Assembly: GCA_963971305.1 (NCBI GenBank)
Contig: OZ020305.1
Coordinates: 1,769,001-1,833,000, forward strand
DNA length: 64,000 nucleotides
Direction of reading: 5' to 3'
Source: Arcuatula senhousia
Lineage: Eukaryota; Mollusca; Bivalvia; Mytilida; Mytilidae
Part shown: positions 11,215-64,000 of the stretch, piece by piece
Layout: every line of letters starts with the position of its first letter
Position numbering within the stretch: the first letter of the stretch is position 1
The notes under the pieces: generated by a model
The model's input: only the letters and a program-made list of their open reading frames with translations
What the model was told of the DNA's origin: nothing
Databases searched by the model: none
Program-made: the position numbers and the translations under genes

Positions 11215-11400
11215 TATTACAAATACAATTGTATTAAAACAAATCAAGCAATGGAAGAAGGAAGTTTGGCGCGCCATAAAACCTGGTTTCATTTGAAATG
11301 CATGTACCAAGTCAGGACCATTGCAATCTATAACTATTCCGGTGTGTCTTCCATGTTTGGTCTTTTCACTTTGCATTGAGATCGATCCTTCAAGTTCAGT
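11215..11400 (+). repeat. Dispersed repeat family D, diverged copy
   Basis: Contains AATGGAAGAAGGAAGTTTGG, CATAAAACCTGGTTTCATTT, ACCAAGTCAGGACCATTGCA and a GATCCTTCAAGTTCAGTAAT end, matching the unit at 56570-56755 in the same orientation. The 71-codon ORF at 11164 overlaps it and is not a gene. Confidence 0.65.
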
Positions 11401-11859
11401 AATTTTGTTATTACTTTTATTTATTAAAATATGGTTTTTGTGCTGAAAGCTTTATCAAGAAAAAGAAGGTGAAATAAAGTTCACATAGAACATGGTTGAT
11501 TCCCAGAACACTATTGTAGATCAGTGTATCGCTTTTCTATCTTTCGTTAGGCAAGACTTTTAGGTCGTGTTCCTGCAGCTGCTATTTGATATCTGACCAG
11601 TAGAAAATTACCAGCTTATCTGGCGGGGAAGTCGGTTTTGCTTCTATTTCAATTGAATTGTTCAATGATATTTTGATTGCACTGTTTCAATTTTATCTTA
11701 GCCTGACTTGTAACGAGAGAACTACGGGTTTATATCGATGATATTTTATATGAAGGTGTATTTAGACCATCTGCATTATCGTTAGTGATGCGGTAAAAAA
11801 AAAGAACAATATTCGTTTTCACCTTATTCTACCTTTCGCGAAACCAGTGGAGTGTAGGG
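11401..11859. other. Non-coding stretch, nothing recognised
   Basis: No shared repeat or coding signal seen. Confidence 0.4.
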
Positions 11860-13384: not shown

Positions 13385-13459
13385 ATGATTCTCAAGCTGA
13401 AATCTGAAATCAAGAAGAAGAGGGAAAAGGCTGGAATCATATCAGAGAGTACTCCACAG
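13385..13459 (+). CDS. FOCAD: FOCAD exon E1 (first recognised)
   Basis: Follows the pyrimidine-rich acceptor TTTTTTTATTCTTAG and ends at ACAG|GTGATG. It encodes 25 codons beginning MILKLKSEIKKKREKAG, phase 0 at its 3' end. The ATG immediately after the acceptor could be a start, but vertebrate focadhesin has some 20 residues before this point and the upstream text looks like a 3' splice site. I therefore treat the exon as internal. It is followed by a 534-nt intron without recognised features. Confidence 0.75.
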
Positions 13460-28400: not shown

Positions 28401-31400
28401 GAAACCTTTTATATCATCTATTGACAATGAACACTTCTGGACATTTATCAAGATCTTATTGCACTGTTAACTCATTTTATGACTGATTCAGTTTTTCCCA
28501 TCCGTATGTTGATGAATGTAATTTGTAGATACAAAGAATCATTGTGAGTGCACGTCAAAATGGTAAATTTAGAGTGCCTTTATTTCTGAAAGAAGTTTTC
28601 TCAGAGCTGAAATGTGTTAGGTGTGGAATTGTTAAGCACTTACTTTAGAAAAAGAATTATAATGTATGTTGAATGCTTTTGACTTTTTATTGAATGCATA
28701 TTTTAGCAATTGAAGTGGATAATGCAAATGCAAAAACAATTAATTGTTTTCATGGCATGAAACTAACATGTGGGTCCAGATATAAATTTGAATAGTTGAA
28801 GATCCTGATATAATCATGTGTATAGACATAGCTTTTCAAAACTGAACAAAAAATCTTTAGTTCCAAAGATGTTGGGTTTAGACAGTTTTTACTTAGGTAT
28901 ACAGACATGATGGTGTACAAAGAGAAAATATATGTATATTGAATTACAGTTATAATTTTTGCCATCTTTGCATCAACATAGGTCAGAGTATTTCTATTTT
29001 GATGTACCTTGTGATGAACTGTTTGAATATTAGATTGTTTACCATCTGAACATTTTAGACTTTTTTGTTTGGGATATTGTGTAAAATTATATGGCTTGGG
29101 TTATGAATGTATGAAATAAAAATCAGTTTGACTGTTTTTGTTGAAATGTTTGACTGGGATTCCACTATGTGAAATGTTAGATGTTGGGCAACACCCTGGT
29201 GGTAGGTCAAGGAAAATATTTTCATAACATTTATTCCATCAACTAGTTATTTGGTCTGCAGCATTATTATTGGGTCCCATATTGATTTGATTTCAGATTG
29301 TGCTATAACAAGCAGGAACTTTTCTGGAGCTCCTGGGTTCATTTTCATTCTTGAATTGCGTTGTTGATTTCTGTGTTTTTTACATTTTGTGTTTCCTGTC
29401 CTTGTCCTTTTGGACTTTTGACACTAGAATGCACATTTTGGTGGCTCTTTGCTTATTTTTTCCTGTTTTATGAGATTTTCCAGTCTTATAATATGAAAAA
29501 TTTTAGATTAACAAAGTGAAGTTACAAGTATCTAAAGTATCAGGTAAAATAAAATGATCACTAAAAATATCTGTAAAAACATTGTCAGTCAGCATCATAG
29601 TGGTACTTAAGACTGAACAAGGTAAAAAAATATAAACAATTTGCATGAGGACCTATATAAATTGATATTTTTGTACTTTAATAGGTTGCCACCGCATCCC
29701 TTTATAACAGTGGTAAACAACAGACCAGATGCTTGGCCACAACTTATACAAGAAATCTGGGCGATGTGTCACAGTGACAATAAATGGTGAGTTGACTAGA
29801 AATCTGGGCGATGTGTCACAGTAATAATAAATGGTGAGTTGACTAGAAATCTGGGTGATTTGTCAATAAATGGTGAGTTGACTAGAAATATGGGCGATGT
29901 GTCAATAAATGGTGACTTGAAATCTGGGCGATGTGTCACAGTGACAATAAATGGTGAGTTGACTAGAAATCTGGGCGATGTGTCAATAATTGGTGAGTTC
30001 ACTAGAAATCTGAGCGACGTGTCACAGTGACAATAAATGGTGAGTTGACTAGAAACCTGGGTGATGTGTCACAGTGACAATAAATGGCGAGTTGACTAGA
30101 AATCTTGGTGATTTGTCAATAAATGGTGAGTTGACTAGAAATATGGGCGATGTGTCAATAAATGGTGACTTGAAATCTGGGCGATGTGTCACAGTGACAA
30201 TAAATGGTGAGTTGACTAGAAATCTGGGCGATGTGTCAATAAATGGTGACTTGAAATCTGGGCGATGTGTCACAGTGACAATAAATGGTGAGTTGACTAG
30301 AAATCTGGGCAATGTGTCAGTGATAATAAATGGTGAGATGACTAGAAATCTGGGCGATGCGTCACATTTATAATAAATGTTGAAATGACTTGAAATCTGG
30401 GTGATGTGTCAATAAATGGTGAGTTGACTAGAAATCTTGGCGATGTGTCAAAGTAACAATAAATGGTGAGTTGACTAGAAATCAGGGCGATGTGTCAAAG
30501 TGACAATAAATGGCGAGTTGACTAGAAATCAGGGCGATGTGTCAATAAATGGTGAATTGACTAGAAATCTGAACGATGTGTCACAGTGACAATAAATGGT
30601 GAGTTGACTAGAAATCTGTGCGATTTGTCACAGTGACAATAAATGGTGAGTTGACAAGAAATCTGGGCGATATGTCACAGTGATAATAAATGGTTAGTTA
30701 ACTTGAAATCTGGGCGATGTGTCACAGTGATAATAAATGGTGAGTTGAGTAAAATTATGGCCAAATTGTCACAGATACAATGAATGGTCAGTTGACCAGA
30801 AATCTGGAGAATGTGTCACAGTGATAATAAATGCCGAGTTGACTTGAAATCTGGTTGATGTATCACAGTGACAATGAATGGTCAGTTGACTAGAAATCTG
30901 TGAAATGTTTCACAGTAATAATAATTGGTGAGTTAACAAGAAATATCGGGGCTGTGTCACAGTGATAATAAATAGTGAGTTGACTAGAAATCTGGGTGAT
31001 GTGTAACAGTGTTAATAATGGTAAGTTAGCTCAAAATCTGGGCAAAGTGTCCCAGTGATAATAATTGGTCAGTTGACTAGAAATCTGGGCAATGTGTCAC
31101 AGTGACAATAAATGGCGAGTTGACTAGAAATCTTGGCGATGTGTCAATAAATGGTGAGTTGGCTCAAAATCTGGATGATGTGTCACAGTGACAATAAATG
31201 GTGAGGTGACAAGAAATCTGGGCTGTGTAACAGTGATAATAAATAGTGAGTTTACTAGAAATCTGGGCTGTGTAACAGTGATAATAAATGGTCAGTTGAC
31301 TAGAAATCTGGGCGATGTGTAACAGTGACAATAAATGTTGAGTTGAATAGAAATACGGATGATGTGCCACAGTGATAATAAATGGTGAGTGTTGACTCGG

Positions 31401-34400
31401 AATCTGGGGGATGTGTAACAGTGACAATGAATGCTAAGTTGAATAGAAATCTGGGCGATGAGTCACAATGTAATTAATGGTGAGTTAGTTCGAAATGTGG
31501 GAGATGTGACACAGTGATAATAAATGGTGTGTTGACTAGAATTCAGAGTGATGTGTCACATTGATAATACATGGTGACTTAAATAGAAATCTGGGCGATG
31601 TGTCACAATGTAATTAATGGTGAGTTAGTTGGAAATGTGGGCGATGTGACACAGTGATAATAAATGGTGAGTGTTGACTCTGAATCTGGGCGATGTGTGA
31701 CAGTGATAATGAATGCTAAGTTGAATAGAAATCTGGGCGATGTGTCACAATGTAATTAATGGTGAGTTAGTTCGAAATCTGGGCGATGTGACACAGTGAT
31801 AATAAATGGGGAGTTGACTAGAAATCTGGGTGATGTGTCACAGTGACAAGGAATGATGAGTTGAATAGAAATCTGGGCAATGTGTCACAGTGACAATGAA
31901 TGATGAGTTGACTAGAAATCTGGGCGATGTGTCACAGTGACAACGAATGATGAGTTGAATAGAAATCTGGGCAATGTGTCACAGTGACAATGAATGATGA
32001 GTTGACTAGAAATCTGGGCGATTTGTCACAGTGACAACGAATGATGAGTTGAATAGAAATCTGGGCAATGTGTCACAGTGACAATGAATGATGAGTTGAC
32101 TAGAAATCTGGGGGATGTGTCAAAGTGATATATAATGGTGAGTTGGGTAAATATTTGAAATATCTGATACAGTAGGCTTTTTTTTAAATGACAATGTCAT
32201 AAAAATTATGTTTTTGATTTACTCTGTTTTAATTTCACTTGGACCAACTGCAAAACAGTTATGCTAGTAATGACTCCTTGTTCATGTTGATGTCTGGTGG
32301 ATTTTTGCAGTGCATATTTTAAAGAAGTGCAATGTCTTTATGAATATTGTGTTATTTATTACAGAATCTATCTGGCTTTCATGTTTTGTCTTCCCCAATA
32401 TTAATGACCATTAGTTAATTAGAATGCAGGACACTAAAGTATCCAAGTTTTTTTGTTTCTGTTGCAGACAGGATAGACAGACAGAATTGTTAAAATCCTG
32501 AACGCTGTGCATGCTAATAATGTCTTAAATGGGTCAAACTGCTAAAGTTATGCTACATAATGTACAGAAAAATCATAAATATGTCATGAAATGGGCTTCA
32601 TAACAGGCTTTTAGAACTGTAGGTGGTTATTATGTTACTGAGTCACACTGGGAAGTATTTAATGTTAATATGTAATGTAAACTCTAAAGGAGTTATCTTA
32701 AATATATATAATAACTGGCCATGATTTCAGCCTTTTTATATTCGTCTATCCTAAAAAAGTTATGGTTCAGCAACAATAATTTCAACCAATCTTATACACA
32801 TCAACCTGGCCATATAAATATCAAGGATGAATAGATCATCCTATAATTTATACAAATTTGATGGAAATTAATGATTGTATAAAAGATAAATTATACCCGG
32901 ATTTTTTAACCTTACATCTCATTTATGATATCCTTGTCATTATTACAATGGTTTATTCATGCGAAGATAATTCTTAGCATGGCCTTCATAATATGTTACC
33001 ATAAAGAAAGAAAGTTCTCACATAAACCGAGCGTTAGGAGTTCAACTTCATTAAAACTGCATATGATTTTCTATTGAAAAACAAAACAGATACAAAATAT
33101 TGTAAAGTGGTCTAAAACAATAAAAAGATACATATGAATTATTCTATATTTTTATATTGGCTAAATGTATATAAAATGTTAAAGATAGATATTCCGTTAA
33201 TTGTCCTCTGCCTTGCATTTTATGTTATTTTCCTTTCTATTGGAATATGAATTTTTGTCATGCTTACAAAATTTAAGAAAGCTAGTTTTTATCTTCTTTT
33301 GTCTTGTCATTTTCCCCTTTTAAGATAAACATACTGACTGCAATTCATACTTTATAATGTTAGTAAAAAATATGAATTTCAGAGAAAAAACTGTAGATGA
33401 GAACATTATCAGAAATGTCATTGATTGTTATAATTTACAAAGACGAACAACAAAAGAATTGGGCTTAGTTTTTTTTTATACCATTTCAAAATACAAATGA
33501 CAACAAAGTTCCAGACAATAAATTTTGCTACGCCTGACGCGCGTTTCGTCAATTCAAGACTCATCAGAGGCCCTCTACCAAAAATATTGCAAATGCCAAA
33601 CACTGAATGAATATGAAGAGCATAGAACAGAATAACAAAAATTACCAAACTGGGGAACCAAATTTTTACTAAGATATTCAACCTATGTCTGGGGTAGGAA
33701 GAACCTTAGGGTTTAGACAATTTTGAAATTTAGACGGATAATATAAAGCTTTGATGTATTCTCCAACTCAAAAGTGTTGGTGCCAGAGCGGGCTAACCTC
33801 GGGGAATTTAAACTCCACCAGCAGAGCTAACCTTCACATGTGTTCGAAATACAAATGACAACAAAGTTCCAGACAATAAATTTTGCTACGCCTGACGCGC
33901 GTTTCGTCTATTTAAGACTCATCAGAGGCGCTCTACCAAAAATATTGAAAATGCCAAACACTGTATGAATATGAAGAGCATAGAACAATATAACCAAAAA
34001 TACCAAACTGGGGAACCAAATTATTACTAAGATAATCGACCTATGTCTGGGGTAGGAAGAACCTTAGGGTTTAGACAATTTTGAAATTTTGACGGATAAT
34101 TTAAAGCTTTGAAATTTATTGTTTTAAATGACAGAATTATAATAATAGGTTAGGGATATTTTTGAAGAAAAATAACATTAAATATTATTTGTATCAATAA
34201 TAGATATCAAATAAATACTGCACCATTAGTCCAAACAATAAACTATGTGTGATTCCCATAACATGTCTGAAAAAATAGGTATGTAGGTTTATTTTTATAT
34301 TTTTACCCTTTTTTTACTTTGAGTTAAAGGAGAGTGGAATTAAAGTTTAACAGTGCTTAAGCAAAAAAAGCCTACAAAAAGTTAGGGTAGGCATGAAAAA

Positions 34401-37400
34401 ATAAATATGGTTCGATAGCCGGAAACATAAATATTTTTTCGCCATAAAACTACCATGTGTGACCAATGTGTGACCAAAAGGGGATAAGCTCTTATACAGA
34501 CTCTTTTTATTTACAGTGTAAGACAAAACAGCACCAGGTTGTTGGAGCCTTTCCTGAAGTTTGTCTTACTAGAACCACAACAGAGTCAACAATTCATGTC
34601 CATGAGACAAAGTCTACTGAGGATACTGTTACACACCTCAACAGAGGATTATGTTCTAGACTTCTTAATAAAAGTTTTACCTGGATTTCAGGTAAGTTGA
34701 AAACATGTGTTAATTTAGCGGTGGGCATAAAGGAATCACATTCACCAATGTCTATCCGTCAACAGTGGATTGACAATGTATTAGATTATATGATTAAAGT
34801 TTTACCTGAAATTTAGGATTGTTTAGAAATATTTTTATAATGAGGGCTAAATGAATCACACAGAGGACCATGTAAAGTTTTACCAGGCTTTCAGGTTTGC
34901 TGAGAACATATATGAAATGTTTAGTATATGCCCCTTCTATGATTTGAGGAAATCTAGGATATTTTTTCTCAGTAATGTTTCTGGACTATAAATAGATGCA
35001 TTGATTTAGTCAGAAATATATAAGTATATTTGATCTGATCATAAAGCTTATACTTTATTTCCTCTTTCATTTGTCATAAAATAAATGATAGTGGTCAAAT
35101 TTCAAAGAAGTTTTAATCTTTTTCCCAGTAGTAGAGAGTCTGATTTAGTATATATATTAACGTCTGAAGATGACATTGTCTATGTTGCCATGTATCTTGT
35201 CTGTGTCTTATTCCAGCAGAATTGCCTTGTCAGCCAGATGACATTAGTATGATGGTCACTGAGTATGAAGTTCATACAGTCATTATACCTGCTTTATGCA
35301 GTTAAAAATTTAAAATTGTTTAAAACAGAAGGATTTATTTTCTTTGAGAAAAAAGGCCTAAGGTTCTTGCCATCCCAGACAAAGGTTGATGAACTTAGTT
35401 ATAATTTGTTCTGCAATTTGGTATTATCAGGTTTTTTATTCTTTTGCTCTAAATTCATAATCATATAGTGTTTGTCATTTCAAAATTTTTGGTAGAGGGC
35501 TTCTGATGAGTCTTAAATAGACAAAACGGCATCAGGTATAGCAAAAATTTTGTCTTGAACTATATGTCATCGTTTTAATTTTGAATTTAACAAAATAGAT
35601 TTAAAATAGATTTCAAGTGTAATTATTTTGCTCAATTTTGAAAGGGGTAGTCAGAGTGGAACTCTTTGCTGACATCAGAGACTCTTGTAATTATACACTC
35701 TATGTCTCTAAGCTTTTGTTAAGTTGATCACCTTGCTCTAAAGAGCTACATTCTCTGTAACTCAAAAAAAGATGAAATGCATGTTACAACAATTTGATTT
35801 TTTTTCTCTAAATTCTAAGTAGATTGATTGAAACAATTGTAAACTTAGGTAACTGTTAATTTTTTGTAACAATATGTTTGTTAATTTGTCAAAGAATCCT
35901 CCCTTAGCTAAGAGATGCATTAATGATTGACTGTTCAGCCATAATAATTCTTCACATTCATCGAACCAGTTCTACGATATCATTATAGCTTTTTCCACTG
36001 TAAAATAACTAAAAGATCTTATCATGTGTTAAAACTGAAACCCATTACTGTAACAAAGCTGTTCTAAATTAGATTTTTAATGTATTTTTATGAAGTGACT
36101 AAAATAAAGATTTTTACTATATTTTTTACAGTTCTTATTATCAATTTTTAAATGTTATTTTTCACTTTAAGACAAATTTCGAAATCTGTTAAGTGGAAGT
36201 GTGGTGGAAACAATGTTATAATATATATTTCTTATAATGTTATTTCTTTTCTATGTTTTTCATTAACTACGATTTAATTTAAGTATAACAACAAAAAATA
36301 CTGACAATTTATGCCAATAAAGTTTTGGTTGAATTAACAAACAAAACAAATGTATAATGTCTGAAAGGGCAAAACAGAATCAGTAAACATGAATAAGAAC
36401 AGCACAAAGAGATAAACAACATACAAACACATAAAAACAACTGAATAGCAATCAAAAACTTGAACTCAAGACTTATAAAGGATGCTCTGGCTGGAGTTTA
36501 AGAAATAAAAAAATAGCAGATTAATCGGAAATGTAGAATAAATTAACATACAAACCATTCATAAAACTATAACAATTTGAAAGTCTGCAATGAAGTACCA
36601 TTGACGAAACAATAAACTTTCTTATGGCAAGTGAATATAAAGCCTTTAAAAACAAATCACTTTGATAAAAATTGTTGTTTTTTGATATTTTGATTAAAAC
36701 TGAACATTACTACAAATCCATTTTTATGACATAGTGTTCTATCTCACTTTATATTTTTAGCTGAACACAAGTGAAAGTGTCGCAGTAACCTCTCAGTTTT
36801 TAATTGAACTGTTACCAAGAGTCAACGGAGAGAAGGAGTTACGTACCCTGCTGAGATACGGATTCTCACTATGTCAACAGAGTACTAAACTTCAGATGGG
36901 GTATACCATGCTAGCAGAGACGTTGAAAGAATGTGTTACTAAAAATAACCCTAAGGTATGAGGTAGATGGAATATGTTACTGAAATAGCAGTAAGGTATG
37001 AGGTAGAGGGAATATGTTACTGAAATAGCACTAAGGTATGAGGTAGAGGGAATATGTTACTGAAATAGCAGTAAGGTATGAGGTAGAGGGAATATGTTAC
37101 TGAAATAGCAGTAAGGTATGAGGTAGAGGGAATATGTTACTGAAATAGCAGTAAGGTATGAGACACAGGGAATATCTTACTGAAATATCAGTAAGGTATG
37201 AGGTAGAGGGAATATGTTACTGAAATAGCACTAAGGTATGAAGTAGAGGGAATGTGTTACTGAAAATAGCACTAAGGTATGAGGCAGAGGGAATATGTTA
37301 CTGAAATAGCACTAAGGTATGAGGCAGAGGGAATATGTTACTGAAATAGCACTAAGGTATGAGGTAGAGGGAATATGTTACTGAAATGTCACTAAGGTAT

Positions 37401-55400: not shown

Positions 55401-58400
55401 AGCAGACTTCCTAGAATCCGTTGTGTCCTTTATCTCAAGCTCCTGGGGATATATGAGATGGAGAAAGTCACCAAATCGAGAATTGTTTAGTGAAAGGACA
55501 TCATCAATATAACGGAACGTGAGGTTGAAAGAGATAGCTAGCCTACGGTCTTTTTTGTCTAGAAGAGATTGTAAGAAGTCTGCTTCATATGAATGAAGAA
55601 ACAAATCAGCAAGCAAAGGTGCACAATTTGTGCCCATTGGGATCCCTATTGTTTGCTTGTTAACTAATTATAGTGATATATAGGAAAATTGATTAAGGTT
55701 AAGCAGTGGAGAAAACTTGACAAAATTGAAATTGGATTTGTCTTTTTGAGAAATATGCCAGCTACCAAGGAAAAAAGTTTGCTTTAATAATCTTTGTTAA
55801 TATAATGTTTTTTTTTAAACTTAGACATTAGAGCAGTTTTAATGAGATGTTATGTGAGGTACAACTACATGACACAACTCCTATGAAAAACAGTTCACAT
55901 TTTCACAACAGCAACAAAATGTCCTACACATGTATTCTGGCCACAGTTTTTTTCCCATTTTGTGGCCTCTGTACCAAAAACTAAGCATTCCCTAGAAAAC
56001 CTGACCCCACATTTGGGCTTATATCTTATTTTGTTTCTTAAGGTATGTGTAGCCCTATCCTGAAGACTATAATATCTCAAGGAGACAACATTTGGCCTCT
56101 CTCCAGGAAATTAAATCTTGTTTCATAACTTTAGGTATGTGTGGCTCCTATCCTGAAGACTATCCAGTCCCTAGGGACCACCCCACGTCTCAGACCCTTG
56201 TCCCTCAGTCTGATGGTGGACCTCTGGCAGCTTCAGGACAGATGTTTCCCACACCTACTCCAGATGATACAGGATGCTACATTAGTGAACTTTGACCTCC
56301 AGCTAGCAAGAGCTAAGGCCATTCTAGAAATTTGTAAAACTAGGTATGAATTATAGGTACCAAGGCAGGACCATTGCGATCTTAATTTCTTCTGGTTTTG
56401 TGTTTCTCTCAAATAAAAATTACAACCAAGTTCCAGACAAAAGCTTCTGTATTTTTTCATGATAATTTTCATATCCTACATGTCTTATTTTGTTCGACTT
56501 ATAAAACCTAATTCCAAGAAAATTTTACAGTGTCGCACTATTCTATGTAACTATGTATATTATGAACTTGAAGATCGCAATGGAAGAGGGAGGTTTGGCG
56601 CCATAAAACCTGGTTTAACCCACCATTTCGTTTGAAATGCCTGTACCAAGTCAGGACCATTGCGATCCACCAGTTCTCCGGTATGACTGATTCGTTTTTG
56701 TCATTTTCTCTGGACTATGAGATTGATCATTCAAGTTCGGTAGTTTTGTTATAACCTTATTTATATGTTGTGATAAAAATTTGAGGAATGAAACCAATGT
56801 TTGAAAGGAATTAATGCATGTTAATGGTTTGGTGATTAAAATTAGTGTTTAATTGTCTTTATTCAGTCAATCATTAAATGCCAATAAAACAATGGTTAGA
56901 TATATATATATAAACCAAATTTCCAGATGTCTCTATGCCCGATGTCCAATCGTCTATACAATACTCAACAAAGAAGCAAAGGTGTACCAAAGGGGTAATC
57001 AGAATAATAAAACCGTAAAGACAAAGACCAAACGGGCAGACAAAAATTCATCACAACATAACAAACCACATAACAAAATAAAACACACACACGCATAACA
57101 AAACCACATTCAGCATCGCGAACTCAAGTCGAAACATAGCTATGCTATAGCACACCCGTCACGTTGCAAAAGATCGATTAAGTGTTGTAAGGGGCTCTAC
57201 CAAATGATTGAAAATGCCAAACACTATATAAATATGAAGAGCATAGACCTATGTAACCAAAAAATGCCGACTGGAAACCAATATATGACTGATATCAACC
57301 TATATCTTGGGAAGGAAAAACTTTGGGTTTTGACAATTTTAAAATTTAAACAGGTTATTTCAAAGTTAATTGAAAATAAAAGTGTTGATGCTTGTGCGGG
57401 CTAACCTTGGTATATTAAAGTTTCATCAGAAGCGCTAACCTTCAGAGGGACTAAAGAATGAAAATACCAAATACTATATTTTCCAAACAAGAATAATTTA
57501 TGATGGATTTGACGGATTTTTGTAATTTTCTGATACAATTGTGATTTATTTCCAGACCAGAACAGCATGGTACAGACATGTTAGGTCCACTGTCAGACAT
57601 TCTGAATACATGTACTGATGATTCTCAGGCCCCTGTAGCTGCCATGGCCCTTGAGGGTCTATACCATCTTTGTGAGGCTGAGGTAAAATCATGTCTATAT
57701 AAGTAGGTTTGAAAGTTAAATGTTCAAACTGCTTTTTCCTGCTTTTTGACATTCGGATACCCCATTGGTACCTCTGCTTCTTAGTACGGTTTCATTATCA
57801 TTCGTGTTATCAATTGTTTTGTCCACTGGACTTGCAACTGAGGATTCTCTAGTCCGTGTGACTGCCATGGCACATGAGGGTCTATATTATCTATGTGGGT
57901 AAAGAAGAGGTAAATCTATTGCTGTCACTTGGCGACGTCATCTGTCCGTCGTCTGTCGTCCGTCTTCCTTCCTAAACTTTTTTCAAAGCTTAACTTGTCT
58001 GACACCATGCATCATACATGCAAATAACTCAAAAACATTGACAGATAAAAAAATTCTGGCATGGGGTATAAGTGTTCAGTACCTCCAGATCTTCCTGCCC
58101 AGAAATTTTTAAGAAGATAAAACAACCAATGTAGGAGTTATTGCCCTTTTTCTGGATTTTTTTTCAAAATTTTGGACTTATTTAGCCTTATAGCTTGAAA
58201 ACTATACAAGATATTTAAAAAAATTAAATTGCATATGATTTAGAACATCAAGATCTACATTTCATGTTATTAAGTCAAAGTTGTAGGACCATTTCTTTTA
58301 GGAGTACTGGCCCTTAAGGATGTTCACTCTTCATATTTCTGAATATCAGTCAGAATTCGGAACTCCACTAGACTTTCCTTTGAATACTGAAGAACTTTTT

Positions 58401-61400: not shown

Positions 61401-63019
61401 AAATTTGTACTTTTTTGAAATATAATGAAATGAAGTCAGATTTTCAGCAACCCCAATAACTAGTTTACAATCACAAAAGGGACTAAACATTCTTTTATTG
61501 AACTCAGATAAGTATCATTTAATGGTCTGTTAGGTTACCTAGATATAAGACCATGAGGGATGAAGTATAACATATATATATAAAAAATGTCAAAACTGAC
61601 CAAGATTGATTTATGAAAATAATTATGATACTATTTTGTAGGTCACTTTTTAAACTTTTGGTTTTTATCCTTGCTATTTTGGTCATTTTCTTATTAATGT
61701 TCATGTTCCAAGACGACAAAATCATAATTTACGAAATAATTATTTTTGACAAGAATCACTAAGGAAAACTCGACAATGGGACTTTATTGTTTGGGTTTGA
61801 ATGTCTATGAATAATTGTACGACGGGAATTCTACATCTTTATAAAATCAGCATATGTAAGGTGTTAAAATAATTATCTTCCCTTGTTCATGTTGTTGTCC
61901 ATGATGAGTATTATCTTATTAATTGAATTGTCTTTTTGACGTTAGTTGCAATGTCTGGATTTCATTCACACATCAACGTCATGGGAATAGAAATTGAAAT
62001 AAGTAGAATGGAGACTCTGTTCTGGTTGTGGGAGTTACAGAAAGATATGAATAGCCAAATATGTTGTACTTTTGTAGTAGATGTATAGACATATTTTAAC
62101 CCAAATTCTAGATTTACATTTATCAATCTAAAATATGTTGACTGATATTAATTATTTTCCCCCACAATTTATATTTTCTCACATTTGAAGACCTTCCATG
62201 CACTAAGGCACCAAGTCTTTTTAGATCAAAAGTGACTGTAATTTTATTTATGTACTAAGTTTTCATATTTGGAGATCAATCGTATTGTGCTAGATTAAAT
62301 AAATGTTAAATGAACGCTGATTTGCATGGTGAACACTAAGACAATCAACCAAATGTTTATTCAGTGTCAAGAAAGAGATTGAACTTCTTGAACTTACCGT
62401 GCCACATTGAAGGTGACCTAAAATAAAGATCAGTACATTATGGGAACTTCGACAGAATACCCATGACCGCTTCAGGTGAACATCAGAAGGTTGCTTAAAA
62501 GGCATATTCTAATTATCACCCTTTATATCACCCACATAGTGTTGCAAGGGTGAAAAAATCAAGTTAATCACTCATATTTCAATTAGAAACTTTCCCTTTG
62601 TTCCAGACCAGTAGTTGTAGAGAAGATTTGTGACTTGTTTTCTCTGGTACCAGACCATGCTGTTGATTCACCTGAATACCAGGTAAGAAATGAAAAAATA
62701 AATCCTGACTTTAGCACAAAAATCAGAAAATTATAAGGCCCCCAGATCTGGAATTTAAGTCATTGACTTCAATTTGATGATAGGCCTGATGAAATAGCTA
62801 TTGATCATTTTGAGAAAACTTAGATTTTTTTCACAAACAGTTAATGTTACATGACAGTGTTATGAAGTATTTTCCTCATTGCAGAAATTCGTCAGTAATA
62901 CTGTGAGGAACCTTTGGCTGTTATCTCAAAGCTGTAATGATAATGTAGCCCAGGCTGCATTCCAGGCACTGTCTATGTTTAATGCTGATCGGTTCAAGAT
63001 GTCACATCTACCAGCTTTG
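13385..63019 (+). CDS. FOCAD: FOCAD (focadhesin) gene, partial: 15 coding exons E1-E15
   Basis: Fifteen exons with AG/GT borders join into one uninterrupted 691-codon frame: 13385-13459, 13994-14148, 14677-14784, 29685-29786, 34517-34691, 36761-36955, 39887-39974, 44199-44392, 50908-51177, 54073-54177, 56135-56343, 57556-57682, 60000-60058, 62607-62682, 62885-63019. All phases agree, which independently supports the set. The product is all-helical, HEAT/ARM-like, and collinear with the N-terminal DUF3730 half of vertebrate focadhesin (about 1800 aa in full). Human focadhesin is reported at focal adhesions and to stabilise the cytoplasmic SKI RNA-decay complex; the plant relative RST1 links exosome and SKI. 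That role here is inferred by homology. About 20 N-terminal codons and the whole C-terminal half are not seen. Introns reach 14.9 kb. Several exon ends are amplified into tandem arrays. Confidence 0.93.
13994..14148 (+). CDS. FOCAD: FOCAD exon E2
   Basis: Bounded by TCAATTTTTCTAG and AA|GTATGA; phase 0 to 2. It encodes VDELKLLFEKCTDSSNILST at its start and ends in GLRNFLNLVPSA. The LLFEKC...NFLNLVPSA text corresponds to the LLWEKC...GILNLIPST stretch of human focadhesin (from memory). The minus-strand ORF over the same bases is a shadow. Confidence 0.9.
14149..14676. other. FOCAD intron 2, nothing recognised
   Basis: Short AT-rich intron of 528 nt with no shared repeat. Confidence 0.6.
14677..14784 (+). 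CDS. FOCAD: FOCAD exon E3
   Basis: Acceptor TTTCATTTTTTTACAG, donor TCAG|GTTTGT; phase 2 to 2. It encodes NLNGIVQAISSLLKLQLAVY and ends PYSLR after joining E4. It matches the human segment containing HGLIKAIMHLLQMQ and YTIR. The next intron is the longest in the window, 14.9 kb. Confidence 0.92.
14785..15837. other. Start of intron 3, nothing recognised
   Basis: Unique-looking AT-rich DNA before the first mobile-element fragment. Confidence 0.4.
15838..16085 (-). mobile_element. Penelope-like element 3' tail (family B)
   Basis: Nearly identical to 54753-55000: AGCAGAGGTACCAATGGAGT, TCCGAAAGGGCAGAGACAAA, GGTGCTCCGGAAGAGTAAGC, TATAGCACACCCGTCGC. Read on the minus strand it is the terminal part of the element carrying the reverse transcriptase at 55170-55637. 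It is 5'-truncated and keeps no RT sequence. Confidence 0.75.
16086..16450. other. Intron 3 spacer, nothing recognised
   Basis: No repeat or coding signal seen. Confidence 0.4.
16451..16850. mobile_element. MITE-like element with imperfect terminal inverted repeats
   Basis: The left end has TTAAGTACTA, AAGAATCAGGCAG and AGGGTGGCACATTGAT; the right end carries their inverted order ATCAATGTGCCACCC, CTGCCTGATTCTT and TAGTACTTAA. The internal 300 bp are non-coding. Exact ends and the target duplication are uncertain. Confidence 0.6.
16939..17363. mobile_element. MITE with CACGTG-rich palindromic body
   Basis: Perfect inverted termini CACAGGGAAATTTTGTTCAC (left, 16939) and GTGAACAAAATTTCCCTGTG (right, ending 17363) are flanked on both sides by TATA, consistent with a TA or TATA target duplication. 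The arms are almost entirely reiterations of the palindrome TTCACGTGAA and its variants; at least nine exact CACGTG sites are present. No ORF. It could form a long hairpin. Confidence 0.85.
17364..18049. other. Intron 3 spacer before the satellite, nothing recognised
   Basis: AT-rich, no repeat recognised. Confidence 0.4.
18050..27310 (+). repeat. Intronic satellite of about 38-bp units, with higher-order structure
   Basis: The unit is built from GACAGGTTGGTACATTTTCA followed by GTGTGGTAACTGATTTAA, 38 bp. Excluding the insert at 23413-24493, about 8.2 kb of array remains, near 215 units by length. Units vary at fixed positions (AAGTTCAGTATGATAA, TTTACATTGTGGTAAT, TTTCCACTGTGGTAAC variants). 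Variant blocks recur at offsets that are multiples of 38, for example GGTAAAAGTTCTTTATGATA near 20115, 21142 and 22851, showing segmental amplification. At 26700-27290 units alternate with TCAGATGGAAGGTTGGTACA. No protein is encoded. Confidence 0.95.
23413..24493 (+). mobile_element. Three identical head-to-tail 359-bp units (family A) inserted in the satellite
   Basis: TTTGTATTTCGAACACACGT begins units at about 23413, 23772 and 24131, period 359; by eye the three units are identical. Each ends GTCTGGAACTTTGTTGTCA. The satellite reads through on both sides with ATTTT repeated at the borders, a possible 5-bp target duplication. Units carry no ORF. The tandem trimer inside another tandem array suggests insertion of a pre-formed multimer or later unequal exchange. 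Confidence 0.9.
27311..29299. other. Intron 3 after the satellite; one repeat module, otherwise nothing recognised
   Basis: 27560-27700 holds one module of the 11860-13340 type (ATTTCATGTAACTTACATAC ... AAAGGTGAAGGTCAAAAG). The rest is AT-rich without recognised features; minus ORFs at 27262 and 28750 are not supported as genes. Confidence 0.45.
29300..29465 (+). mobile_element. Diverged family B tail fragment
   Basis: TGCTATAACAAGCAGGAACT, GCGTTGTTGATTT, TTTCCTGTCCTTGTCC, GGACTTTTGACA in the order of the Penelope-like tail. Confidence 0.55.
29685..29786 (+). CDS. FOCAD: FOCAD exon E4
   Basis: Acceptor TTTGTACTTTAATAG, donor AAATG|GTGAGT; phase 2 to 2. It encodes LPPHPFITVVNNRPDAWPQL and ends IWAMCHSDNK. 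It matches the human NHPHPLITVLEHRPDCW region; the interval from that W to the PFL in E5 has the same length (31 residues) as I recall in human, so this exon end is ancestral. The last 36 nt (29751-29786) plus the donor are the first unit of the minisatellite that follows. Read-through past the donor gives TGG TGA, an immediate stop. Confidence 0.93.
29751..32139 (+). repeat. Exon-derived minisatellite: E4 3' end plus 5' splice site, about 50 copies
   Basis: The 47-bp unit (AGAAATCTGGGCGATGTGTC, then ACAGTGACAATAAATG|GTGAGTTGACT) starts inside coding exon E4 at 29751 and repeats to about 32139. Shorter 36-39-bp variants lack the ACAGTGACAA part. Most units keep AATG|GTGAGT, so the intron begins with dozens of copies of its own donor. 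Later units drift (GTTGAATAG, GAATGATGAGTTGA). Its ORFs on both strands (29796-30373, 31164-31427) are repeat artefacts. Confidence 0.95.
32140..33490. other. Intron 4, nothing recognised
   Basis: AT-rich DNA with no shared repeat. Acceptor-like TTTTTGCAG (32302-32310) and TCTGTTGCAG (near 32466) occur but E4 and E5 join in phase without any exon between them. Confidence 0.5.
33491..34120 (-). repeat. Two tandem units of family A (second truncated)
   Basis: ACAACAAAGTTCCAGACAAT occurs at 33500 and 33858, period 358, each followed by the GCCTGACGCGCGTTTCGTC core. The first unit is complete; the second stops near GGATAATTTAAAGCTTTG (about 34113). A 264-nt minus ORF over the first unit is not a gene. 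Confidence 0.9.
34121..34516. other. End of intron 4, nothing recognised
   Basis: AT-rich spacer before E5. Confidence 0.5.
34517..34691 (+). CDS. FOCAD: FOCAD exon E5
   Basis: Acceptor CTTTTTATTTACAG, donor TTCAG|GTAAGT; phase 2 to 0. In the phase set by E4 it encodes LLEPFLKFVLLEPQQSQQFM and ends DYVLDFLIKVLPGFQ, matching human APFLWYLYCEPSQ and LALLKVLL. A longer open frame over the same bases (34466-34816) is the wrong frame and should not be annotated. Confidence 0.92.
35345..35575 (+). repeat. Family A, diverged partial copy
   Basis: CCTAAGGTTCTTGCCATCCC, TTTGGTAGAGGGCTTCTGAT, GAGTCTTAAATAGACAAAAC, with the core shortened to CGGCATCAGGTATAGC. Confidence 0.8.
36355..36500 (-). mobile_element. 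Family B tail fragment
   Basis: TCTGAAAGGGCAAAACAGAA, AGATAAACAACATACAAACA, AAAACAACTGAATAGCAATC, CTTGAACTCAAG in the order of 15860-16010. Confidence 0.6.
36761..36955 (+). CDS. FOCAD: FOCAD exon E6
   Basis: Acceptor CACTTTATATTTTTAG, donor CTAAG|GTATGA; phase 0 to 0, 65 codons. It begins LNTSESVAVTSQFLIELLPR and ends LAETLKECVTKNNPK. Leu-rich helical repeat sequence typical of the family. The last 27 nt with the donor seed the array at 36956. Read-through past the donor gives GTA TGA, a stop at the second codon. Confidence 0.9.
36929..38232 (+). repeat. Exon-derived minisatellite: E6 3' end plus 5' splice site, about 32 copies of 40 bp
   Basis: The exon end GAATGTGTTACTAAAAATAA-CCCTAAG|GTATGAGG is echoed by the unit GAATATGTTACTGAAATAGC-ACTAAG|GTATGAGGTAGAGG. 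The array begins at the true junction and runs to about 38232. Most units keep AAG|GTATGA, a usable donor consensus. Units are homogeneous in the middle and drift at the 3' end. Confidence 0.95.
38233..39886. other. Rest of intron 6; three degenerate tandem modules
   Basis: 38510-38960 holds three diverged copies of a roughly 150-bp module marked by TGTAAAGA-C, GACTGTCAGTTAT and ATTAAACCCTCATGGTCTTT. No further feature is recognised up to E7. Confidence 0.45.
39887..39974 (+). CDS. FOCAD: FOCAD exon E7
   Basis: Acceptor TTATTTTTATTTCAG, donor ATCG|GTAAGC; phase 0 to 1. It encodes KLLSDADLVTISSLLVSTPK and ends ALVPVIDI. Joins E8 through a split Ala codon. A minus-strand ORF across it is a shadow. 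Confidence 0.88.
40539..41122. mobile_element. MITE-like element with about 35-bp imperfect inverted termini
   Basis: Left AAAGGAGTAAAGCCACAAAG; right end, reverse-complemented, AAAGGAGTAGAGCCACGAAG. The complementarity continues inward (GCCCCC..GGCCC against GGCCCT..GGCCC). 584 bp, non-coding. No clear target duplication. Confidence 0.65.
41240..41455 (+). repeat. Family A, diverged partial copy
   Basis: TTTTGGTAGAGCGCCTCTGA and TTGTCTGGAACTTTGTTGTC with core ACACACGTCAGGCATAGC. Confidence 0.85.
41843..42106 (+). other. Unassigned 87-codon ORF in intron 7
   Basis: Open from 41843 to the stop at 42106 with a fairly mixed residue composition (for example YSKAAFLVIDFITVALQTP). No family recognised and no convincing flanking splice sites. 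The E7-E8 junction is already in phase without it. It may be chance or a relic of a mobile element. Confidence 0.15.
42430..43560 (+). repeat. Family E repeat split by a nested bivalve repeat element (42505-43500)
   Basis: Left part GAGATGTGGAATAAGTGTAA and right part CAGCCAGCAGCCTTCAATGT are the two halves of family E (compare 12940-13070). Between them is an element that starts TTAGCTCACCTGACCAGAAG, carries GTCCGTCGTCCGTCCGTCCG, and ends CAGGTGAGCGATTCAGG/CTCCTGGGAGCC. The element contains two internal modules (about 42585-43070 and 43075-43430) sharing TCTCTGAAACCACTGAA, GACCAACATGGCCGCCGTTG and AGACCATTGTTTTTGGCTTA. Non-coding. Confidence 0.75.
44199..44392 (+). CDS. FOCAD: FOCAD exon E8
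   Basis: Acceptor TGTGTATGATTTGTAG, donor AGAG|GTGGGT; phase 1 to 0. It encodes ANFALQTWTWNPLVVGMVAM through STIKKLICTNQDREE (first Ala split with E7). The LVVGMVAMPILVLVTTP stretch is a hydrophobic helix of the solenoid rather than an obvious membrane anchor. Confidence 0.88.
45020..45215 (-). repeat. Family A, diverged partial copy
   Basis: GTTTTGTCTATTCAAGACTC, AAAATATTGAAAAAGCAAAA, AACTGGGAAACCAAATTATG, in the order of the minus-strand unit at 33530-33710. Confidence 0.75.
46115..47150 (+). repeat. Minisatellite of 42-bp units, about 25 copies
   Basis: The unit is TGTGTGCATCACAGGTCATC followed by ATTGTCATGTCTAGGAGACACA. Because 42 is a multiple of three and the unit lacks stops in several frames, it creates long overlapping ORFs on both strands (up to 188 codons at 46759-47325). 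Their peptides are simple 14-residue reiterations (SSLSCLGDTCVHHR; DMTMMTCDAHMCLL). They have no start context, family match or splice support, so I do not call them genes. Confidence 0.95.
47905..48500 (+). repeat. Bivalve repeat module with CTGTCTGTCCGTC run
   Basis: Starts near GTTTAGGGCTCTGCATCAAA and GATGCGGACGCCCTATAG, has a CTGTCTGTCTGTC/CCGTC run at 47964-48007, then two modules sharing ACACTAAAACTC, AGTATCATGT and TTTCRTGCAAA. Non-coding. Confidence 0.55.
48652..48790 (-). mobile_element. Family B tail fragment
   Basis: GGAGCAGAGGTACCATTGGA, AAGGGCAGAGACAAAACCTG, CAGACAACATGTAAAACATG; nearly identical to 15838-15960. Confidence 0.8.
49370..49665 (+). repeat. Minisatellite of 40-bp units containing a 5' splice-site consensus, about 7 copies
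   Basis: Unit AGCTTACAAATTGATATGAT then TGGTTGTTAAG|GTAAGTGAC, period 40. Each copy contains AAG|GTAAGT, a strong match to the donor consensus. Unlike the E4 and E6 arrays the sequence before the donor has stops in all three frames, so no exon origin can be shown. Confidence 0.9.
50908..51177 (+). CDS. FOCAD: FOCAD exon E9
   Basis: Acceptor CTCCATTTACAG, donor GTCAG|GTGAGT; phase 0 to 0, 90 codons, the longest exon seen. It begins ESLNMTPLTNLASGGYESQE and ends LALETLIDIAKHDVSQ. Its 3' half with the donor is duplicated three more times downstream. Reading past the donor continues open to a TGA at 51286. The overlapping minus ORF is a shadow. Confidence 0.88.
51224..51871 (+). repeat. Three decayed copies of the E9 3' end and donor
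   Basis: Copies end at 51313 (TTGTCAG|GTAAGT), 51444 (CAGTCAT|GTGAAT, donor damaged) and 51871 (GGACATCAG|GTGAGT). All share CTGATTGATATAGCCAAGTA-like text with E9. The periods are 136 and 131. The third interval is 427 but falls to about 131 when the family D insertion at 51450-51745 is removed. All copies have stops or indels in the coding frame. Confidence 0.88.
51450..51745 (-). repeat. Dispersed repeat family D, near-complete copy
   Basis: ACTACCGAACTTGAATGATC at one end, ACCAGGTTTTATGGCGCCAA in the middle and a GTGTCACACTGTAAAT-like end. It interrupts the array of E9 copies. Confidence 0.75.
51872..54072. other. Rest of intron 9
   Basis: 52560-53280 is a bivalve repeat module (CTTGCTAAGCGAGACACATT start, CAGGTGAGCGATTCAGG/CTCCTGGGAGC end at 53251-53279). 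The rest is AT-rich with nothing recognised. Confidence 0.5.
54073..54177 (+). CDS. FOCAD: FOCAD exon E10
   Basis: Acceptor GGGTATTTATTTCAG, donor CAAAAG|GTAAAA; phase 0 to 0. It encodes SPNFLPLMVFKLGIETNWDV and ends TVLRSLPRLARQK, leading directly into the VCVAPIL start of E11 as in vertebrate focadhesin. Confidence 0.92.
54408..54740 (+). mobile_element. tRNA-derived SINE with META-type core
   Basis: The head AGCCGGTGGTGTAGTGGTTA (A box) and GGTTCGATCC (B box) have tRNA-like spacing. The core contains CGGAAGGGACG, GTTGTCCCGTGTATGGGAGA and ATGCACGTTAAAAACCCC, resembling the conserved domain of invertebrate MetaSINEs (from memory). It ends in an AT-rich tail. The 62-codon ORF at 54517 lies in it and is not a gene. 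The tRNA part is not a functional tRNA. Confidence 0.75.
54750..55660 (-). mobile_element. 5'-truncated Penelope-like retroelement
   Basis: Minus-strand element. It begins inside the reverse transcriptase at about 55660 (GIPMGTNCAP text), runs through the RT, then the non-coding tail shared by all family B fragments, ending at AGCAGAGGTACCAATGGGGT (about 54753). No GIY-YIG endonuclease was seen after the RT. Assignment to Penelope-like elements rests on overall resemblance of the RT text and is moderate. Confidence 0.7.
55170..55637 (-). pseudogene. Reverse transcriptase fragment of the Penelope-like element
   Basis: 155 codons. Residues 1-7 are the PMG..AP-type motif end; YIDD at residues 43-46 is the catalytic box; SASYLDLHLEID and YDKRDDFNFPIVNFPFL follow. 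The N-terminal RT motifs are absent (truncation). Near 55220 the frame shifts: the characteristic continuation (FLSRATRLTQKLL, LLSSLKKFYGRH) lies in another frame down to about 55040. It is therefore inactive. Confidence 0.8.
55661..56134. other. End of intron 10 with a decoy copy of the E11 start
   Basis: AT-rich DNA. 56021-56070 is a diverged duplicate of the E11 3' splice site and first codons (see separate entry). Confidence 0.6.
56000..56092 (+). repeat. Upstream duplicate of E11 acceptor and exon start
   Basis: TTTCTTAAG|GTATGTGTAG then CCCTATCCTGAAGACTAT parallels the true TTTCATAACTTTAG|GTATGTGTGG and CTCCTATCCTGAAGACTAT at 56121-56160, offset about 94 bp. A one-base deletion puts a TGA in frame and the acceptor reads AAG rather than TAG, so it is non-functional. 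Confidence 0.85.
56135..56343 (+). CDS. FOCAD: FOCAD exon E11
   Basis: Acceptor TTTCATAACTTTAG, donor ACTAG|GTATGA; phase 0 to 2, 69 full codons. It encodes VCVAPILKTIQSLGTTPRLR, then SLSLMVDLWQLQDRCFPHLL, ending ARAKAILEICKTR. It closely parallels the human VCVPQ..LGxxPRLR...LWEKQDRVYP segment, one of the best-conserved parts. Other frames also stay open (56092, 56141) but the 56141 frame is the correct one. Confidence 0.95.
56505..56760 (+). repeat. Dispersed repeat family D, near-complete copy
   Basis: TTACAGTGTCGCACTATTCT end, then AATGGAAGAGGGAGGTTTGG, CGCCATAAAACCTGGTTTAA, AGTCAGGACCATTGCGATCC, and GATCATTCAAGTTCGGTAGT. Opposite orientation to the copy in intron 9. Confidence 0.8.
56985..57180 (-). 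mobile_element. Family B tail, diverged copy
   Basis: AAAGGTGTACCAAAGGGGTA, CGCGAACTCAAGTCGAAACA, TATAGCACACCCGTCACGTT in the order of 54760-54975. Confidence 0.65.
57185..57450 (-). repeat. Family A, diverged partial copy
   Basis: TCTACCAAATGATTGAAAAT, GCCAAACACTATATAAATAT, GAAGAGCATAGA, GTGCGGGCTAACCT in the order of the minus-strand unit; the GACGCGCGTT core is missing. Confidence 0.75.
57556..57682 (+). CDS. FOCAD: FOCAD exon E12
   Basis: Acceptor TTGTGATTTATTTCCAG, donor GAG|GTAAAA; phase 2 to 0. It encodes PEQHGTDMLGPLSDILNTCT and ends AAMALEGLYHLCEAE, matching human QHGADML...LQGLHALCQAE. Its 3' half and donor are duplicated at about 57816-57909. Confidence 0.95.
57745..57783 (+). 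mobile_element. Terminal scrap of family B
   Basis: TTTTTGACATTCGGATACCC and CATTGGTACCTCTGCTTCTT are exactly the outer end of the Penelope-like tail. Confidence 0.7.
57816..57909 (+). repeat. Decayed copy of the E12 3' end and donor
   Basis: TTGTCCACTGG, GAGGATTCTC, GACTGCCATGGCACATGAGG, GTCTATATTATCTATGTGGG, AAGAAGAG|GTAAAT line up with E12 positions 57585-57682 and its donor. It has small indels and a stop. A weaker third copy may lie at 59640-59730 (CTGCTACTTACATGG, TTTTATTATCTGTGT) beyond an inserted repeat. Confidence 0.8.
57925..59632 (+). repeat. Bivalve repeat element with two long internal modules
   Basis: The start has CATCTGTCCGTCGTCTGTCG; the end is CAGGTGAGCGATTCAGG/CTCCTGGGAGCC at 59598-59626. 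Two modules (about 58120-58880 and 59020-59420) share TTATTGCCCTTTTTCTGGAT, TCTTGAAAACTA, AGGACCATTTCTTTTAGGAG and AAAAATAGAACATAGGGGTA. Non-coding; ORFs at 58620 and 59301 are incidental. It is inserted between the second and possible third copies of the E12 end. Confidence 0.7.
60000..60058 (+). CDS. FOCAD: FOCAD exon E13
   Basis: Acceptor GGTATGAAATTTCAG, donor ACAAG|GTAAGC; phase 0 to 2. Twenty residues VIDIKSAWDVLAVKLSSDTR, against human VVCIRTTWNALSPKLSCDTR from memory. Confidence 0.95.
60059..62606. other. FOCAD intron 13, nothing recognised
   Basis: About 2.5 kb of AT-rich DNA. Small ORFs at 60175 (+), 61239, 61519 and 62290 (minus) lack domains and splice support. No shared repeat was seen. 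Confidence 0.5.
62607..62682 (+). CDS. FOCAD: FOCAD exon E14
   Basis: Acceptor TTTCCCTTTGTTCCAG, donor TACCAG|GTAAGA; phase 2 to 0. It encodes PVVVEKICDLFSLVPDHAVD and ends SPEYQ, matching human RPLILKTLSELFSLVPS. Confidence 0.95.
62885..63019 (+). CDS. FOCAD: FOCAD exon E15 (last recognised)
   Basis: Acceptor TTTTCCTCATTGCAG, donor GCTTTG|GTAAGT; phase 0 to 0, 45 codons. It begins KFVSNTVRNLWLLSQSCNDN and ends ADRFKMSHLPAL. It corresponds to the human segment with LWTHTQNKDP..ANAAYRSLANF and LHLPEKI. The exon 3' part is tandemly copied downstream; the next true exon lies beyond the window. Confidence 0.92.
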
Positions 63020-63059
63020 GTAAGTATTTGTTAACACACCCCTATGGCTGTTATATCAG

Positions 63060-63149
63060 AGTGCTAATGATAATGTAGCACAGGCTGCTTTTCAGGCACT
63101 GTCCATGTTTAATGCTGATCAGTTCAAAATGTCACATCTACCAGCTTTG
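63060..63149 (+). CDS. FOCAD: Possible alternative 90-nt cassette exon (E15 copy 2)
   Basis: Base changes relative to E15 turn TTATCTCAAAG into TTATATCAG|AG, creating a 3' splice site. From there the frame is open for exactly 30 codons (SANDNVAQAAFQALSMFNAD onward, ending SHLPAL) to TTG|GTAAGT, phase 0 to 0. Inclusion would keep the reading frame and add one helical-repeat-sized segment. The pyrimidine tract is weak, so use is unproven. Confidence 0.4.
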
Positions 63150-63189
63150 GTAAGTATTTGTTAACACACCCCTATGGCTGTTATATCAG

Positions 63190-63279
63190 AGTGCTAATGA
63201 TAATGTAGCCCAAGCTGCCTTTCTTGCTTTATTCATGTTAAAAGCTGATCAGTTCAAAATGCAACATCTTCCAGCTTTG
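63190..63279 (+). CDS. FOCAD: Possible alternative 90-nt cassette exon (E15 copy 3)
   Basis: Same created acceptor TTATATCAG and donor TTG|GTAAGT, 30 open codons, phase 0 to 0, with more amino-acid changes (AAFLALFMLKADQF, MQHLPAL). It is equally frame-neutral, alone or together with copy 2. Confidence 0.35.
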
Positions 63280-63759
63280 GTAAGTCTTTGATGGGAAGCT
63301 CTGTCTGTTGTGTGTTATGCATCACAGGCTGCGTTCCAAGAATTATACATGTTTAATTCTGAACAGTTCAATGTAACATCTGCCATTATTGATAAGTCCT
63401 TGGTGTGTAGCTTGGTTTGTCTGTTTATGTTATGTACCAAAGGCTGCCTTCCAGGCCTTATCCATGTTTTATGATGAACAGTTCACATCTGTCAGCCATG
63501 GTAAGTCTTTTGTACCCCCTAAAGATGAAGAAAAGCCCTGTCTGTCGGTCTGTCTGTTTGTTATCTTCCATGTATTGTCCATGAGTTCAACATTTTGATT
63601 CATTTGCCACTGTAGTCCTTTGTACTCGATCTTTTTTAATTGGTGGGTAGCTCTGGCTGTCTTTCTGTTCCTTTTGTAGCACAGGCTGTTTTCCAGGCTC
63701 TGTCCATATTAAATTCCAATCACTTCAACATGGCACAAGTACCAGCTTGGTAAGCCTTT

Positions 63760-64000
63760 AGTACAGTACCACAGTAAATGATCAATTTAAACACAATATA
63801 GTGGAGAGGGCCCATTGATGTCTAGGGGACAATCCTCTTTTCCATCTAATTGTTAATGCACTATGGTTTCATTATGTTATATGGGTATCAATTTTCATGG
63901 TTTACGAGGGTGGCTATGAACTTTGATATCCCAGACATCAGAACCACGAATGCAGGCACTTACAAAATTATAAATTTTCATCAAACCAAGAAAATTTGTA
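63760..64000. other. Intron 15 beginning; possible common bivalve repeat
   Basis: Text such as ATCAATTTTCATGGTTTACG and AGAACCACGAATGCAGGCAC is reminiscent of a short repeat common in bivalve genomes, but only one copy is in the window. Confidence 0.3.

Follow-up and report, generated by a model that had tools for sequence, protein, structure and literature searches.

Tandem copies of exon ends and splice donors at six of fifteen predicted exons of a mussel focadhesin gene

Tandem repeats at exon-intron boundaries have been described before. In segmentally duplicated human genes, minisatellites (internal tandem repeats) lie at exon-intron boundaries, and some of them are spliced out while others are retained in the transcript (De Grassi and Ciccarelli 2009, PMC2812944). 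A tandem duplication that includes an intron-exon boundary is reported from a potato gene (PMC4974935), and in C. elegans intronic minisatellites are linked to alternative splicing (PMC4039745). Intronic minisatellites are also found in earthworm metallothionein, for which exon-end units are not described in the part of the report available (PMC12783039). In the current study we analysed a stretch of 64,000 nucleotides from Arcuatula senhousia, referred to as the window, whose pattern of duplicated splice donors had been called undescribed in an earlier note on this DNA. For the kind of repeat this claim was too strong, given the human boundary minisatellites and the potato boundary duplication. 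The unusual part is the occurrence of six in one gene, and no report of a single gene with separate arrays at many of its donors was found among the papers listed in an open-licence library.

The gene is a predicted focadhesin (FOCAD, DUF3730). Exons were predicted from protein homology using tblastn with Mytilus trossulus P0004 together with splice sites, and the 15 exons give a 691-aa frame with no stops. A 636-aa model with 13 exons matched PF12530 with E=2e-56, which identifies the DUF3730 domain. Mytilus trossulus is the closest relative among the matches listed, with 61% identity to the predicted protein, and a search of solved structures gave no matches. Since the predicted exons align to consecutive parts of Mytilus trossulus FOCAD, the exons are ancestral and copying proceeded from exon to intron. 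The protein search also picked up some intronic copies of E4, E9, E12 and E15, as expected of exon-derived repeats. All features described here are on the plus strand. No donor copies accompany E1 (13385-13459), E2 (13994-14148), E3 (14677-14784), E7 (39887-39974), E8 (44199-44392), E10 (54073-54177), E13 (60000-60058) and E14 (62607-62682).

Six of the 15 donors (E4, E5, E6, E9, E12 and E15) are followed by tandem copies in the next intron, with 53, 3, 33, 4, 2 and 6 copies, respectively, when the exon copy is included. At E4 (29685..29786; donor ATG/GTGAGT, the slash marking the junction) the array at 29751..32148 has a 47-bp unit of 36 terminal exon bases and 11 intron bases. The E6 array (36929..38239; exon 36761..36955, donor AAG/GTATGA) has a 40-bp consensus unit with 26 exon-derived and 14 intron-derived bases, compared with 27 + 14 bases in the exon copy itself, and a degenerate trace is found further on at 38280-38318. 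At E15 (62885..63019; donor TTG/GTAAGT) the array at 62911..63760 is built from a 130-bp unit of 109 terminal exon bases and 21 intron bases, and a 79-base stretch recurs unchanged 130 bp on. The units of E4, E6 and E15 span the donor, as expected of exon-intron boundary minisatellites with their junction-spanning tandem units, and so do the E9 and E12 copies and the second E5 copy described below.

The remaining donors have fewer copies. Two degenerate copies (34759..34924) lie downstream of the end of E5 (34517..34691; donor CAG/GTAAGT); in the first (34759-34817) the similarity covers the exon and one base beyond the junction (+1) and the GT is lost, while in the second (34874-34924) it runs from -20 to +27 with GTTTGC at the donor. 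Copies 2-4 of E9 (50908..51177; donor CAG/GTGAGT) occupy 51178..51933, with donors at about 51313, 51444 and 51871 and similarity extending to +8, +4 and +62. Their spacing from the exon donor at 51177 is 136 bp, then 131 bp, and then a longer step between copies 3 and 4 that contains a dispersed repeat (51450-51685). The second copy of E12 (57556..57682; donor GAG/GTAAAA), at 57837..57914, is similar from -68 to +5 around the junction and lies 223-227 bp from the first. This gap contains a fragment of a dispersed repeat (57744-57782), so that 227 bp cannot safely be taken as the length of the original unit. The duplications differ in age, as seen from the dispersed repeats, one inside the E9 array and a fragment in the gap of E12, compared with the unchanged 79-base stretch of E15. 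Only one of the 15 acceptors is duplicated, that of E11 (56135..56343). Its upstream copy (56019..56089) carries AAG/GTATGT 92 bp before the true acceptor, and 56019-56070 is matched at 56111-56163.

The earlier note had listed downstream copies of the E4, E6, E9, E12 and E15 donors, all of which are present, and its unit lengths hold for E4, E6, E15 and the E9 spacing; its figure of about 227 bp for E12 is less secure as an original unit. The copy range it gave, 2 to about 50, agrees with our counts of 2 (E12) to 53 (E4). Its tally of junction duplications at six of 15 exons correctly included the E11 acceptor but fell short since the E5 donor was missed, the count being six donors and one acceptor. 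The units are unrelated and the geometry recurs, as it had proposed: none of the 36 pairs among 9 units is similar at P<0.02, which rules out one shared or mobile unit behind all arrays.

In order to find copies systematically, the donor region of each exon end was scored against the next 3 kb in 13 exons; the donors of E1 and E7, added later, are inside no duplication cluster. The six duplicated donors scored 55, 27, 39, 41, 31.5 and 72 and the other seven 10-13.5, compared with a maximum of 22 in a Markov null (n=3000). Judged one by one against all 3000 positions of the real window, none of the six donors stands out (P 0.16-0.34), since much of the DNA of the window is repetitive; against 2082 positions outside arrays P was 0.022-0.079. 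We preferred an event-based null, in which each array is one birth, to a per-base null, and the case rests on the event count. There are 47 local self-similarity clusters in the 64 kb, 13 of which lie upstream of the predicted gene; some clusters belong to one and the same array. For the placement test 26 local duplications of the gene were placed at random in 20,000 draws, after removal of every cluster at least 700 bp apart and of four that are continuations of other arrays (starting at 51226, 63192, 17128 and 24478). The expected number of donors covered was 0.88 compared with six observed, a roughly six-fold excess, and no draw reached six, in line with the earlier argument that chance would rarely pick exon-donor boundaries so often. 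Under all 12 threshold settings, 5-6 donors were found versus 0.78-1.15 expected. If donor events were two-, three- or five-fold more visible, P would be 0.0005, 0.005 or 0.04. When exonic events were removed by a survival filter, a mean of 0.70 donors was covered, so the filter alone gives no donor enrichment over introns. The comparison of six donors with one acceptor gave a one-sided Fisher P=0.040. As the window was chosen for the pattern, these P values, which concern one gene, are optimistic.

In our view these exon-end and donor copies are likely ordinary tandem duplications, persisting because splicing probably still relies on the first donor, that of the exon. Each would have been born by slippage or by break repair, as a duplication with one end inside the exon and the other in the intron. 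Exon and donor would be retained in the 5'-most copy, and the extra copies would be intronic from the outset and would drift, leaving the normal message intact as long as the first donor stays usable. Duplication of an acceptor would instead place an additional acceptor ahead of the old one and interfere with the message. This would account for finding six donors versus one acceptor. With one half of each pair being slowly changing exon, such events would also be recognisable for longer. The genome appears rich in births, judging from the local clusters, and two arrays would later have expanded, E4 and E6. The donor columns of these two arrays drift like the rest of the unit, and similarity to the exon copy falls with distance (Spearman -0.54 and -0.56). 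These observations favour this explanation, as do the ancestral exons, the six donors versus one acceptor, the differing ages and the stops met beyond the donors. Against it are the 0.88 donors expected and the about five-fold visibility needed for P=0.04, survival filtering without donor enrichment, and the excess of sense-strand motifs described below.

Selection for donor redundancy, suggested in the earlier note, would make the extra donors spare splice sites or decoys tuning unproductive splicing. A GT is present at the donor in 9 of 11 intronic copies of the low-copy arrays (E5, E9, E12, E15) and in 11 of 11 copies in the exon-proximal third of the E6 array. However, in the two large arrays, which the column-wise test covered, conservation of the donor columns does not exceed that of the remaining unit (0.853 versus 0.876 in E4, rank 35 of 47 windows; 0.922 versus 0.929 in E6, rank 18 of 40), so redundancy judged by conservation is rejected for E4 and E6. 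The GT is lost in 18 of 52 intronic E4 copies (34 retain it) and in 8 of 32 E6 copies, and the exact donor 9-mer is retained in only 19/52 and 16/32. Rescue of weak donors is also rejected, the duplicated donors not being weaker than the others (mean score 9.5 versus 7.5, P=0.33). Read-through beyond the six meets a stop within 4-111 nt, although stops within 4-109 nt beyond the other nine mean that this is not special to them. We therefore regard selected donors as very improbable. An assembly artefact is hardly credible at all: copies differ within arrays (mean pair identity 0.847 in E4 and 0.888 in E6), and a dispersed repeat interrupts the E9 array.

Duplications might instead be born preferentially at functioning donors. 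R-loops or breaks at transcription-splicing pauses could cause this, and G-rich sense strands would then favour expansion. Working donors in this mussel lineage would thereby give rise to tandem repeats: damage linked to splicing or R-loops would duplicate the junction again and again, and G-rich sense strands would let some arrays reach dozens of donors. We consider both statements unlikely, though the donor excess, stable across threshold settings, speaks for them. In non-donor events sense-strand donor-like motifs are slightly too frequent (Fisher P=0.017, and P 0.015-0.08 at six thresholds chosen after the data were seen; the antisense value is 0.50), with three in-gene sense matches at score >=8, in units of 40-71 bases. 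These tests used one count per event, with null segments of <=150 and <=160 bases and a few longer units scored whole, a length bias acting alike on both strands. Pseudo-donor counts at low thresholds (30/85 and similar) were set aside, as they held array copies within one first unit and donor-covering events. Sense-strand G skew is 0.33-0.57 in four of the five arrays with at least seven copies. Against birth at donors, skew is lacking in a 42-bp array (0.02), E15 (-0.03), and the E9 (-0.05) and E12 (0.05) units, per-unit P for the five large arrays is 0.05-0.5, no predicted exon marks the start of the large array in intron 3, and the evidence is one gene picked for its pattern. A 40-bp array at 49381 was rejected as a hidden exon, with stops within the unit in all three frames. 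The same choice of gene, from a genome dense in tandem repeats, would favour simple chance, as one gene among many windows; 47 clusters in 64 kb are available, and P=0.0005 under doubled visibility can be attained when genes are read by the thousand. Chance is nevertheless rather improbable, since E5 was found by the systematic scan, outside the initial list, and the six units are mutually unrelated.

The 53 closely similar donor-region copies in one intron are a natural test of 5' splice site choice by the spliceosome, and if the excess extends to other genes, splice donors would represent mutational hotspots at which minisatellites arise. One of the closest parallels is the human one (PMC2812944), with minisatellite-scale repeats at exon-intron boundaries as in FOCAD. 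The human repeats are distributed among numerous recent paralogues and have RNA support, whereas the predicted FOCAD gene, known from DNA, carries six separate units by itself, with up to 53 copies. As in C. elegans (PMC4039745), the FOCAD minisatellites lie in introns near splice choices, but there a minisatellite is shared by several genes, while in FOCAD the unit of every array is an exon end of the gene itself. As in potato (PMC4974935), the FOCAD duplications cross an exon boundary with splice signals within the unit, and E11 has the same geometry of intron end plus exon start; unlike in potato, no new intron is evident and the donor copies lie inside an existing intron.

Copies of an exon end together with its 5′ splice site (donor) were found downstream of six exons of the FOCAD (focadhesin) gene, whose predicted structure of 15 exons (E1-E15) comes from protein homology. 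Most exons were placed by tblastn using a human FOCAD query; the Mytilus trossulus protein P0004 confirmed the exons found earlier and, again by tblastn, added E1 and E7. The nearest protein among the matches listed was from Mytilus trossulus (61% identity). Joined, the 15 predicted exons amount to 2073 bases and 691 residues without a stop, and a 636-residue model of 13 exons matched Pfam DUF3730 (E = 2e-56).

For 13 exons, 60 exon and 20 intron bases at each exon end were compared with the following 3 kb. Six donors scored 27-72 (E4 55, E5 27, E6 39, E9 41, E12 31.5, E15 72) and the remaining seven 10-13.5; the top score in 3000 draws from a Markov null was 22. None of the six stands out when each is ranked on its own among actual positions of the window (P 0.16-0.34 if arrays are included, 0.022-0.079 if they are excluded). 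In the alignments the copies cross the junction at all six donors, the first E5 copy by only 1 base. The E1 and E7 donors lie outside every local-duplication cluster in the window. On the acceptor side, E11 was an outlier, scoring 33 against upstream DNA; the E15 acceptor scored 22 against downstream DNA, where it matched E15's own array. The earlier note's observation of five duplicated donors and a duplicated E11 acceptor is confirmed, and it is extended by the E5 copies, which are new.

Counting the exon copy, the E4 array contains 53 copies of a 47-bp unit (36 exon and 11 intron bases), the E6 array 33 copies of a 40-bp consensus (26 + 14; exon copy 27 + 14) with a trace at 38280-38318, the E15 array six copies of a 130-bp unit (109 + 21) spanning 850 bp, and E5 three copies. 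The four-copy E9 array encloses a dispersed repeat (51450-51685) that matches 56758-56517 at 93%; copies of this repeat, at 75-98% identity, lie at 51450-51685, 56517-56758, 8049-8183 and 11248-11419. The second E12 copy described earlier is present, but 227 bp is not safely its unit, since the gap holds part of a dispersed repeat. The units are unrelated, as had been proposed: nine units, including three intronic ones, were compared, and 0 of 36 pairs were alike. Exon-near copies are closest to the exon copy in the E4 and E6 arrays (similarity by thirds from the exon outward 0.95, 0.896 and 0.891 in E4; 0.845, 0.85 and 0.785 in E6), as would be expected if turnover persists beside the exon and the distal copies degenerate.

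The window holds 47 local-duplication clusters, some being fragments of one array; removal of four continuation clusters and of clusters at least 700 bp apart left 26 in-gene events. Placed randomly, these covered a mean of 0.88 donors, and six were reached in 0 of 20,000 draws, which bears out the claim that exon-donor boundaries are hit more often than by chance. Exon-sparing placement gave a mean of 0.70 and again 0 of 20,000. Across 12 threshold settings, 5-6 donors were hit where 0.78-1.15 would be expected (P ≤ 0.00125), and weighting donor visibility 2-, 3-, 5- and 8-fold gave P = 0.0005, 0.005, 0.04 and 0.18; all these placement values are uncorrected for the window having been picked by the earlier note.

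Other repeats occur in the introns. A large 38-bp array in intron 3 (18074-27326; about 141 + 60 copies, with 61/99-bp variants in addition; sense G skew 0.33) starts at no predicted exon, and the same intron carries an array of an 11-bp palindromic unit, TTCACGTGAAA (16954-17317). Intron 8 holds a 42-bp array of about 25 copies without G skew (46120-47145) and a seven-copy 40-bp array (49381-49662) whose unit contains the consensus donor AAGGTAAGT and no open exon. An open frame on the minus strand (55170-55667) resembles a reverse transcriptase by a motif and may be a fragment of one.

Selection for donor redundancy, also suggested earlier, is not supported. The donor hexamer shows no extra conservation over other columns in the E4 or E6 arrays, where 18 of the 52 intronic copies of E4 and 8 of the 32 of E6 have lost GT; in low-copy arrays 9 of 11 copies keep it. 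The first stop lies 4 (E4), 9 (E5), 6 (E6), 111 (E9), 24 (E12) and 15 nt (E15) past the donor, so that splicing from a later donor would give a truncated protein. Early stops are nothing unusual in introns, since one follows each of the other nine donors too, 4-109 nt on. Donor strength is no lower in the duplicated set than in the others (mean score 9.5 versus 7.5, P = 0.33). These results on conservation, stops and donor strength argue against selected redundancy and would fit extra copies that are neutral intron, provided that splicing uses the first donor.

Ordinary duplications, retained through tolerant geometry, are probably the source of the arrays. The main rival, birth of duplications tied to the junction itself, seems unlikely; clues to it come from motifs and base skew. 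In the 31 window events that cover no donor, motifs resembling a donor on the sense strand are somewhat stronger than expected (Fisher test, P = 0.017, compared with 0.50 on the antisense strand). With thresholds set after the data had been seen, 3 of 20 in-gene non-donor events score at least 8 or 8.5, where 0.82 or 0.64 would be expected (P = 0.044 and 0.024); across six thresholds P was 0.015-0.08, with 0-1 of 20 antisense. The three include the 40-bp array at 49381 and the E11 event; E11 begins (56135) with GTATGT, so its acceptor duplication carries a donor-like motif as well. The sense strand is G-rich in four of five arrays of at least seven copies (skew 0.33-0.57), but skew is lacking in the fifth (0.02) and in E15 (-0.03). 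Motif and skew are leads to a junction-tied cause, not proof.

No report of separate donor arrays recurring in one gene was found in literature searches of an open-licence library. Related arrangements appear in three papers: human genes carrying minisatellites at their exon-intron boundaries (PMC2812944), a tandem duplication spanning an intron-exon boundary (PMC4974935) and an intronic minisatellite tied to alternative splicing (PMC4039745).
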